Shown: piece after piece, positions 21,467 to 23,601 of the stretch
How positions within the stretch are numbered: position 1 is the first letter of the stretch
Layout: the number at the start of each line of letters is the position of its first letter
Assembly (NCBI GenBank): GCA_938028465.1
Contig: CALJAA010000130.1
Location: 1 to 48,414, forward strand
Origin: an uncultured Granulosicoccaceae bacterium
GTDB taxonomy: Bacteria; Pseudomonadota; Gammaproteobacteria; Granulosicoccales; Granulosicoccaceae
DNA length: 48,414 bases
Reading direction: 5' to 3'
Program-made: the position numbers and the translations under genes
The notes under the pieces: generated by a model
The model's database searches: none
The model's input: only the letters and a program-made list of their open reading frames with translations
What the model was told of the DNA's origin: nothing

Positions 21467-21949
21467 ATGCCTACATTTGATGTTGTTTCAGAAGTTGATC
21501 AGCACGAACTCACAAACGCTGTCGATCAAGCTCATAAAGAGATCAGCAATCGGTTTGACTTTAAAGGCACGAACGCTGAAATTAAGGCCGCTGATGGTGC
21601 TATTTCTCTACAAGCTGACAGTGATTTTCAGGTGCAGCAAATGCACCCAGTCATTTATCAAAAGCTCACTGCACGCAGCATTGACATAGCCTGTTTAGAT
21701 GCCGGCAAAATTACACCGTCAGGCAAGGGTGTTAAACAGATCATCAACGTGAAAGAAGGCATCGATAAAGAAACAGCCAAAAAGGCTGTGGGTGTGCTTA
21801 AAGGGTCAAAACTAAAAGTGCAGGCTCAAATTCAAGGCGAGCAACTACGCGTAACCGGTAAAAAGCGTGATGATCTGCAGCAAGCGATGGCCCTATTAAA
21901 AGAAGCCGAGCTTGGTGTGCCTTTACAATTTCAAAATTTCCGTGATTAA
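21467..21949 (+). CDS. yajQ: YajQ family nucleotide-binding protein
   Basis: 160 residues, two ferredoxin-like halves as in E. coli YajQ. The protein starts MPTFDVVSEVD and keeps NRFDFKGT, SKLKVQAQIQGEQLRVTGKKRDDLQ and the C-terminal FQNFRD. In Xanthomonas the homologue XC_3703 binds cyclic di-GMP and acts as a transcription co-regulator; other members bind tRNA or GTP. The role here is therefore open. It converges on rsmJ with a 4-base gap. Confidence 0.94.
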   Translation: MPTFDVVSEVDQHELTNAVDQAHKEISNRFDFKGTNAEIKAADGAISLQADSDFQVQQMHPVIYQKLTARSIDIACLDAGKITPSGKGVKQIINVKEGIDKETAKKAVGVLKGSKLKVQAQIQGEQLRVTGKKRDDLQQAMALLKEAELGVPLQFQNFRD

Positions 21950-21953
21950 CGGG

Positions 21954-22772
21954 TTATCCCGGCGATTGCCTAGCAGTATGATAGATATCAAACCGCGTAG
22001 CGTCTGTCTCCACGGTTGTTAGTTGCCCACGCCAATGTTCAGTACCGGCAATCACATCGGCACCGGAGGGGCGCTTTACCACAACGCGACTTGTCGCAGT
22101 ATCGAGTGCATGTTCTAGCAATCGATCGTTGTCTGTTTCAGGTAATAGCGCCTGCAAAAACTGCATGCCTTTCTTTACCTTGGCTTGCTTTTTTTTGGAT
22201 GGAAACATTGGGTCCAGATAAATAATATTCGGCCTTATCCGGCTGTCAGATTGTGTAAAGTAATCTTGGCTGCGTACATTAATCACCTCAACCTTATTGG
22301 CAATGCTGGCAAGAGCCGGCTGACGTGCAGCGTATTGAATTGCGTGTTGTAGCATCGAAGCTACCAGAGCTGACTGCTCGAGCAAGGTGGTTTTGCAGCC
22401 CTGGCAGGCGATAATCCAACCATCTTGCCCCAGCCCAGCCGTTGCATCGATTACATGGGTTGCATGCCTTTGAGCTTCGGTCAGTTTATGCAGGCCTAGA
22501 GCCCGTACTAAACTTTGATCCTTACTTGGCTGGGCTTGCCGTAGAGCCGCTTTGCCTTGAGTGAAGTCAATATTCATCTTAGCGCCGTCGGGGCGGATCA
22601 GAGTGCGCTGCTCAGAGGACACAAGCAAGCGCCATATGTCATCACCCGTCGATTTAGCCTCATCAAGGTGCAGGCCTAACTGTATAGCTAGATCATTAGC
22701 TATGGGCGTATCCGCCTCTGTATCAGCAACTACCCTTATGATGCTCAGATCTGCGTTACCATCGAAACTCAT
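21954..22772 (-). CDS. rsmJ: 16S rRNA m2G1516 methyltransferase RsmJ
   Basis: A 272-residue SAM-dependent methyltransferase. Motif I is DATAGLGQDGW and the target-binding motif is YLDPMFPSKKKQ, followed by KKGMQFLQ and RVVVKRPSGA, all typical of RsmJ (YhiQ). It adds a methyl group at N2 of G1516 in 16S rRNA. The family is restricted to gammaproteobacteria and relatives. ATG 22772 is only 19 bases from the ATG of the divergent Rieske-like gene. Confidence 0.92.
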   Translation of the reverse strand: MSFDGNADLSIIRVVADTEADTPIANDLAIQLGLHLDEAKSTGDDIWRLLVSSEQRTLIRPDGAKMNIDFTQGKAALRQAQPSKDQSLVRALGLHKLTEAQRHATHVIDATAGLGQDGWIIACQGCKTTLLEQSALVASMLQHAIQYAARQPALASIANKVEVINVRSQDYFTQSDSRIRPNIIYLDPMFPSKKKQAKVKKGMQFLQALLPETDNDRLLEHALDTATSRVVVKRPSGADVIAGTEHWRGQLTTVETDATRFDIYHTARQSPG

Positions 22773-22791: not shown

Positions 22792-23361
22792 ATGTCATTT
22801 GATTCCGGAACATCGCCAGAAAGCGGCCAAGATACCCACAAGCGGCAAATGCTTCGTGTGGCCACCAAGTTGATGGTCGCAGTTGGCGTACTCGCCTTTG
22901 TGGTTTTGCTACTATCGAGCATGTCTAGTTCTGACTCAGTTTCTGTTGATATCCCTTCAATGTTAGTTGATACCAGTGGCATAAAAGAGGGGCAGGTTGA
23001 GTATAAGCTCTGGCATGGCCGCCCGATATTGATATATAAGCGAACCGCTGCTGATCTAAAAGCGCTAAAGCAGAGCAGCCAAGGCCTAAACGATGCTGAT
23101 TCGGAACATTCCGCGCAACCCGAATTTGCCAAAACGCCGCTGAGATCCTTGTCACCAGAGTGGTTTGTTGCGTTTAGTAGTGGTACTGATCAGGGGTGTC
23201 CGATCAAATTACTACCAAACCGGTTTACTGATAGCTGCAGAGGGTCATCCTATGATCTGGCGGGACGGGTCTATGCTGACCAACCGGCTAAAAAGAATCT
23301 AGCGGTGCCACCCTATAAAATTAAGCCCAATGGCAACATATTGCTCGGCGCAGGTGGTTAG
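22792..23361 (+). CDS. membrane-anchored Rieske-fold protein lacking all cluster ligands
   Basis: 189 residues: a cytoplasmic N-terminus, one membrane anchor (about 27-44) and a periplasmic domain resembling the cytochrome bc1 Rieske subunit. Similarities are the entry strand (EGQVEYKLWHGRPILIYKRT, 66-85), PEWFVAF before loop 1, and SSYDLAGRVY...NLAVPPY after loop 2. Loop 1 reads G131-T-D133-Q-G-C136 where the family has C-T-H-L-G-C. Loop 2 reads D147-S-C149-R150-G-S where it has C-P-C-H-G-S. Both disulfide cysteines remain; the four Fe-S ligands are Gly, Asp, Asp and Arg. The twin-arginine motif is reduced to KRQML. It cannot bind a normal [2Fe-2S] cluster. Its function is unknown; no petB/petC genes are nearby. 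Confidence 0.75.
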   Translation: MSFDSGTSPESGQDTHKRQMLRVATKLMVAVGVLAFVVLLLSSMSSSDSVSVDIPSMLVDTSGIKEGQVEYKLWHGRPILIYKRTAADLKALKQSSQGLNDADSEHSAQPEFAKTPLRSLSPEWFVAFSSGTDQGCPIKLLPNRFTDSCRGSSYDLAGRVYADQPAKKNLAVPPYKIKPNGNILLGAGG

Positions 23362-23370
23362 GGTGCCAGC

Positions 23371-23601
23371 TTAATAATGAGGCGGCACCTCATCATCGAT
23401 GCTCGGCGTAGCCTGAGTCTCGCCAGATGAGTCGCCACCGGTTTGAGCTAGGCGCTTTTCAAGCTGAGCATAGGCGGCTTCCAATTGCTTGATTTCGCGG
23501 TATTGAGTGAGCACGACTTCATTTAGCTGATGCAGGGTCATTTCCATCTCCATAACCTTGAGTTCGACTTGTTGCAGTCGGTTTGGATCGGAATCAGTCA
23601 T
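23371..23601 (-). CDS. slyX: SlyX family protein
   Basis: A 76-residue protein: a coiled coil (about 8-53, heptads of Leu/Met/Val) and a short acidic tail ending PPHY, the SlyX hallmark. Function is unknown in all species studied. It lies 9 bases from the end of the Rieske-like gene on the opposite strand and is divergent from gatC. Confidence 0.85.
   Translation of the reverse strand: MTDSDPNRLQQVELKVMEMEMTLHQLNEVVLTQYREIKQLEAAYAQLEKRLAQTGGDSSGETQATPSIDDEVPPHY

Follow-up and report, generated by a model that had tools for sequence, protein, structure and literature searches.

A conserved gammaproteobacterial paralogue of the bc1 Rieske protein lacks all four cluster ligands and seems to have become a redox-inert binding protein

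The Rieske protein PetA, the iron-sulfur subunit of the cytochrome bc1 complex, holds its [2Fe-2S] cluster by two cysteines and two histidines in two loops. What could be the role of a protein which kept the predicted fold and the disulfide cysteines of PetA, but none of these four ligands? This question is raised by a gene of an uncultured Granulosicoccaceae bacterium, located on a stretch of 48,414 nucleotides of contig CALJAA010000130.1, which was analyzed as a whole and is called the window here. As detailed below, what was once an electron carrier seems to serve as a redox-inert binding protein in this case. The gene and the parts of its product, termed cluster-free in the following, are located in the window as follows:

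22792 to 23361, plus strand: gene of the cluster-free Rieske paralogue (189 amino acids, ATG start, stop codon included)
22825 to 22926, plus strand: membrane anchor, predicted helix of residues 12-45 (structure model m2560c2e18943), with R22 and K26 near its start
22960 to 23358, plus strand: Rieske-fold head domain, residues 57-189
23182 to 23199, plus strand: loop 1, GTDQGC, residues 131-136; ligand Cys replaced by Gly131 and ligand His by Asp133, disulfide Cys136 kept
23230 to 23247, plus strand: loop 2, DSCRGS, residues 147-152; ligand Cys replaced by Asp147 and ligand His by Arg150, disulfide Cys149 kept

The initial annotation of this gene had placed the former ligand positions at G131, D133, D147 and R150 and had proposed a bc1 Rieske paralogue with retained disulfide partners. 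The translation of the open reading frame (ORF) confirms this numbering as well as both partners, C136 and C149, which are the only cysteines of the protein. In an alignment, the ATG start is also conserved in the orthologue from genome G005. The NCBIfam model TIGR01416 matched the window paralogue with 102.4 bits (cut-off 97.4, E 2.7e-29), and the best PDB match was 8smr_C, the bc1 Rieske protein of Pseudomonas aeruginosa (E 8.8e-21). By these scores the homology to bc1 Rieske proteins is far beyond chance. TIGR01416 was also matched by all 32 tested cluster-free sequences at E 0.001 or better. The Pfam Rieske domain PF00355 was absent from the matches of the window paralogue up to E 10, and none of the 32 family members matched it at E 0.01. 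This constitutes an annotation trap, with TIGR01416 calling the paralogue an iron-sulfur subunit above its cut-off and the Pfam model missing it. The name of a functional iron-sulfur subunit, which one might derive from the TIGR01416 score, was rejected since the defining ligands are absent. In line with the fold claimed by the initial annotation, a Rieske fold was predicted in two structure models; the closest structural match by root-mean-square deviation was 7yr9_A, the Rieske protein of Thermochromatium tepidum.

For a comparison across the family, identical sequences were merged and aligned stretches of less than 150 residues were dropped, which left 65 cluster-free and 123 canonical sequences, all different from one another (before merging there were 92 non-canonical and 109 canonical rows, to which a further 20 loci were added later). 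Both disulfide cysteines are present in 65/65 cluster-free and 123/123 canonical sequences, and no cluster-free sequence (0/65) contains a cysteine or histidine at any ligand position, which is the pattern that the initial annotation had expected of orthologues. At the four ligand sites, 37 of the cluster-free sequences read GDDR, 17 read SDDR and 11 exhibit other combinations. The weighted frequency in this set is 0.89 for D147 (E 0.06) and 0.87 for D133, and the fourth site is an Arg in 55 of the 65 sequences. In 57 sequences the four sites include at least one acidic and one basic residue. Two sequences carry the Arg at site 131 instead of 150 (R-D-S-D), an arrangement which would be compatible with a salt bridge. 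Judged by this residue pattern, the replacement of the ligands is not random. A CxxC motif is absent from all 65 sequences, and the cluster-free alignment includes neither a conserved third Cys nor a conserved His. A relocated cluster site was rejected, as no further conserved Cys or His exists. In canonical Rieske proteins the same two cysteines are described, in the excerpted text of PMC12219900, as forming a structural bond. A separate Rieske-like sequence, L245 (G379:C1:872308-872712), contains CTFDGC and CPCCGS, with the ligand histidines replaced by Phe and Cys and the cysteines kept; its site departs differently from the canonical one, and its genome exhibits three Rieske matches.

The cluster-free gene is widespread in the genus of its source, where a readable copy was found in 21 of 24 genomes, the source genome included, and C136 and C149 are invariant in the alignment of these 21 orthologues. 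Regarding the other three genomes, G001 contains a contig-end fragment of the gene, rsmJ reaches the contig end in G002, and G008 includes rsmJ and yajQ with no cluster-free gene nearby. While a contig search by a single protein yielded no match, a search by alignment was successful. A profile search outside the genus, from which 80 loci of 431 confirmed stretches were kept, yielded 31 cluster-free and 49 canonical loci by their ligand read-out, and cluster-free copies are found in Thioalkalivibrio sulfidiphilus ALJ17 and T. denitrificans ALJD. A novelty restricted to the genus was rejected, as the gene also occurs in Thioalkalivibrio and further families. In the order of genome G344, 39 of 47 genomes scored in the range of the cluster-free copies (at least 164 bits; next group from 153), and all 30 of these that were read as sequence were indeed cluster-free. 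A sample of the class (369 genomes, 30 loci read) contained cluster-free copies in 10 genomes. Of 30 loci read from a sample of the phylum (299 genomes), 29 were canonical and one was the window gene; as all of them originate from the source's own class, this sample is uninformative on other classes. Among 12 hand-picked loci from other classes, all 12 contained the CTHLGC and C.CHGS motifs (11 canonical by alignment column, one alignment-shifted), and the 30 best loci from other classes were all canonical, with no cluster-free copy. The observed spread is a lower bound, as weaker-scoring cluster-free copies may rank below the loci which were read. As far as can be judged from sequences, the cluster-free family is old, conserved and present in several gammaproteobacterial groups.

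In a tree of the 65 cluster-free and 46 of the 123 canonical sequences, a single branch separates the two sets with a support of 99 in the Shimodaira-Hasegawa-like approximate likelihood ratio test (SH-aLRT); the same split persisted, though with a support of only 83, after the anchor and ligand columns had been removed. A second tree combined 35 cluster-free and 46 canonical rows with 12 rows from other classes, and the cluster-free rows again formed a clade (support 100/98). These 35 rows were chosen by hand from the 65, with the long or odd L110, L129, L131, L028 and L032 among those left out. The outgroup row L262 was placed next to the cluster-free clade on a long branch, and as the outgroup is thereby unclean the tree locates the origin of the family with some uncertainty only. 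The ratio of non-synonymous to synonymous substitution rates (dN/dS) was between 0.07 and 0.34 in 13 of 13 close cluster-free pairs, values by which the gene is under purifying selection.

Apart from the ligands, further features differ between the two sets, as became apparent in a position-by-position comparison in which a canonical residue was counted as lost when its weighted frequency in the cluster-free set was below 0.3. Besides the four ligands, these losses comprise P138 and P148, the hinge-region residues P46, S47, G54 and P56, the anchor residue P39 and P165 and P167 of the Pro-loop; the window paralogue itself retains Pro at 165. By the hinge and the Pro-loop, the head of bc1 Rieske proteins is enabled to dock and to move. 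Among others, W74, R84, D101, S104, Q109, P110, R118, T132, C136, C149, D155, A157, G158, R159, V160, N169 and P173 are kept in both sets, and by this shared conservation they represent the fold core. Residues conserved only in the cluster-free set are R22, V23 and K26 near the anchor start as well as R77, Q164 and L185, with R22 and K26 reaching weighted frequencies of 0.96 and 0.97 and not being conserved in the canonical set. The motif RRx[FLMVI]L occurs in 7/65 cluster-free versus 105/123 canonical sequences, and a stricter motif for twin-arginine translocation (Tat) in 2/65 versus 82/123. The mean hydropathy of the best anchor window is 2.47 versus 1.83. By this measure the anchor is much more hydrophobic in the cluster-free family, and the weakly hydrophobic helix has been lost. 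As the ligands and, for the most part, the hinge, the Pro-loop and the Tat motif are lost, the features for electron carrying and Tat export appear to have been lost together. The initial annotation had taken the KR at the start of the anchor as a sign that Tat export is no longer needed. The loss of the Tat motif holds largely across the family, but the KR start (KRQML) itself is atypical, as RR is still found in the majority of the 21 orthologues in the alignment.

A petABC operon with normal ligands in PetA is present elsewhere in the source genome, where the initial annotation had suggested to look for it. On contig C28 it encodes PetA (CTHLGC, CACHGS), cytochrome b and cytochrome c1 (CMGCH), and the same operon is found in genome G709. 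The carriers, described as marine bacteria, contain a normal respiratory Rieske protein and a cluster-free second copy. In both genomes petABC is adjoined by a gene which, by eye, encodes a DegP/HtrA-like serine protease (L234 3353-4459, L235 2000-3157). A Granulosicoccus genome includes an additional canonical-ligand PetA (L226, G012:C45:3200-4400) beside its usual PetA and its cluster-free copy.

The cluster-free gene is located outside petABC, between rsmJ and slyX, and its neighbours in the window are:

21467 to 21949, plus strand: yajQ (Pfam PF04461, DUF520), conserved neighbour
21954 to 22772, minus strand: rsmJ (Pfam PF04445), divergent neighbour
23371 to 23601, minus strand: slyX (PF04102), downstream neighbour

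A match to rsmJ was found in the locus of 60 of the 65 cluster-free genes, and rsmJ or yajQ in 62, versus none of the 123 canonical loci, although for some of the latter the flanking sequence spans no more than about 300 bases. As rsmJ is located upstream of the cluster-free gene in Granulosicoccaceae and downstream in most others, the neighbourhood appears to be old and rearranged. A promoter scan near the gene yielded 1 site versus 1.4 expected, and a terminator scan 0 versus 0.8 expected. A gene for a DUF1499 protein (PF07386; 20254-20721, minus strand) shares a block with pdxH, yajQ and rsmJ, and its cluster recurs in 8 of the 21 loci compared. Three loci (L062, L065 and L108) contain, shortly upstream of yajQ and the cluster-free gene, an ORF of 107-109 amino acids whose product we take, by eye, to resemble CyaY/frataxin.

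We propose that an old duplicate of the proteobacterial petA gene lost its [2Fe-2S] ligands once and was kept for a redox-inert protein. As the chain would not have to fold around a cofactor while still in the cytoplasm, insertion by Sec/YidC is proposed; the head would then fold in the periplasm, braced by the C136-C149 disulfide, and D133/D147 and R150 might bridge both loops where the cluster once sat. Having neither cluster nor hinge, the protein would not shuttle electrons and would most likely act as a static binder located at the inner membrane, and it is probable that it is a cluster-free, non-shuttling binding protein. By descent, the bc1 complex or its Rieske subunit is tentatively regarded as the likeliest partner, with a possible role in assembly, stability or occupancy. 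Several points weigh against this proposal. The Rieske-protein matches of the structure model follow from homology and are uninformative on function. The 11 sequences with other combinations depart from G/S-D-D-R, and 8/65 do not contain an acid-base pair among the four sites, so that the salt bridge cannot be general. A Tat-like motif persists in 7/65 cluster-free sequences. Finally, the gene is not part of the pet operon, and a classical docking on bc1 is disfavoured by the loss of hinge, Pro-loop and canonical anchor.

It is well conceivable, if short of probable, that the protein is a periplasmic scaffold independent of bc1, in which the Rieske fold would serve only as a stable domain that binds a partner in the envelope. 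The shuttling features are lost, W74, R84, D101, Q109, P110, R118, D155, G158, R159, N169 and P173 remain, and the family exhibits conserved residues of its own (R22, K26, R77, Q164) and a locus of its own which has been kept. However, only yajQ and rsmJ are widely shared among the compared neighbours and neither hints at a partner; yajQ, rsmJ, slyX and gatCAB together suggest none.

Possible, but to be regarded with reserve, is a placeholder, stabiliser or regulator which, while bc1 is being assembled or in some of its dimers, takes a Rieske-like position on cytochrome b/c1 and would be replaced by, or compete with, holo-PetA. This would fit with the descent from PetA-type proteins and the retained fold core, and in the G344 order a second match, scoring in the canonical range, is present in 38 of the 39 genomes that scored in the cluster-free range. 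Yet, the co-occurrence says little, given how frequent canonical PetA is among these bacteria. The largely lost hinge, Pro-loop and canonical anchor residues as well as the separate locus also speak against such a placeholder. A pseudo-Rieske subunit that takes one Rieske position in bc1 dimers, transiently or permanently, is unlikely; if true, complex III would use a dead copy of its moving subunit as a step of its assembly or as a brake.

A thiol-disulfide redox sensor, with C136-C149 cycling between the oxidised and reduced state, would fit with both cysteines being invariant, but is rather improbable, as all 123 canonical sequences share the same pair as a structural bond and neither CxxC nor a conserved third Cys was found. 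A different metal site built from D133 and D147 has the high frequency of both residues in its favour, but the Arg at the fourth site disfavours a cation and no conserved His is available, which makes such a site very improbable. A decaying pseudogene or misassembled copy, to which the faster evolution would point (path between the source genome and G005 of 0.43 versus 0.099 for canonical PetA), can be dismissed almost completely, as 65 different open orthologous sequences form one clade with a conserved locus and dN/dS well below 1, and no ligand-bearing orthologue turned up that would have made the window gene a single decayed copy.

These bacteria offer a natural experiment, with one fold present with and without its iron-sulfur cluster side by side in one cell. 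As the ligands were lost along with the Tat motif while a Sec-like anchor was gained, it becomes directly testable whether Rieske proteins are forced into Tat export by the folding around their cofactor.

No description of a cluster-free PetA paralogue was found in a literature search of open-access journal articles, but several known systems are comparable. NirD of Bacillus bataviensis is, in the excerpt of PMC3475470, likewise a Rieske-type protein with substituted ligands; unlike the cluster-free paralogue, it is a nitrite reductase subunit, and two changes are reported there. In the Zn-containing 'immature' Rieske protein of T. tepidum (7yr9), the Rieske head is also built without an iron-sulfur cluster, but according to the excerpted text of PMC10492824 this protein has the ligands and can take up a cluster. 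Canonical PetA (TIGR01416; PDB 8smr_C, 7yr9_A, 1rie) shares with the cluster-free copy full-length homology, the N-terminal anchor, the Rieske fold, the disulfide cysteines and the AGRV and NLxVP motifs. The cluster-free copy differs from it by its missing ligands, a rare Tat motif, another anchor, the missing hinge and Pro-loop residues and a gene outside petABC. The same molecular change is shown by the deranged Rieske proteins of Acidocella, in which, by the published description as excerpted from PMC10715153, three or four ligands are missing and the cysteine pair is kept. Those proteins, however, belong to a degenerate bc1 complex whose cytochrome b is deranged, whereas the cluster-free copy is a separate paralogue at its own locus, beside a petABC operon with a normal-ligand PetA.
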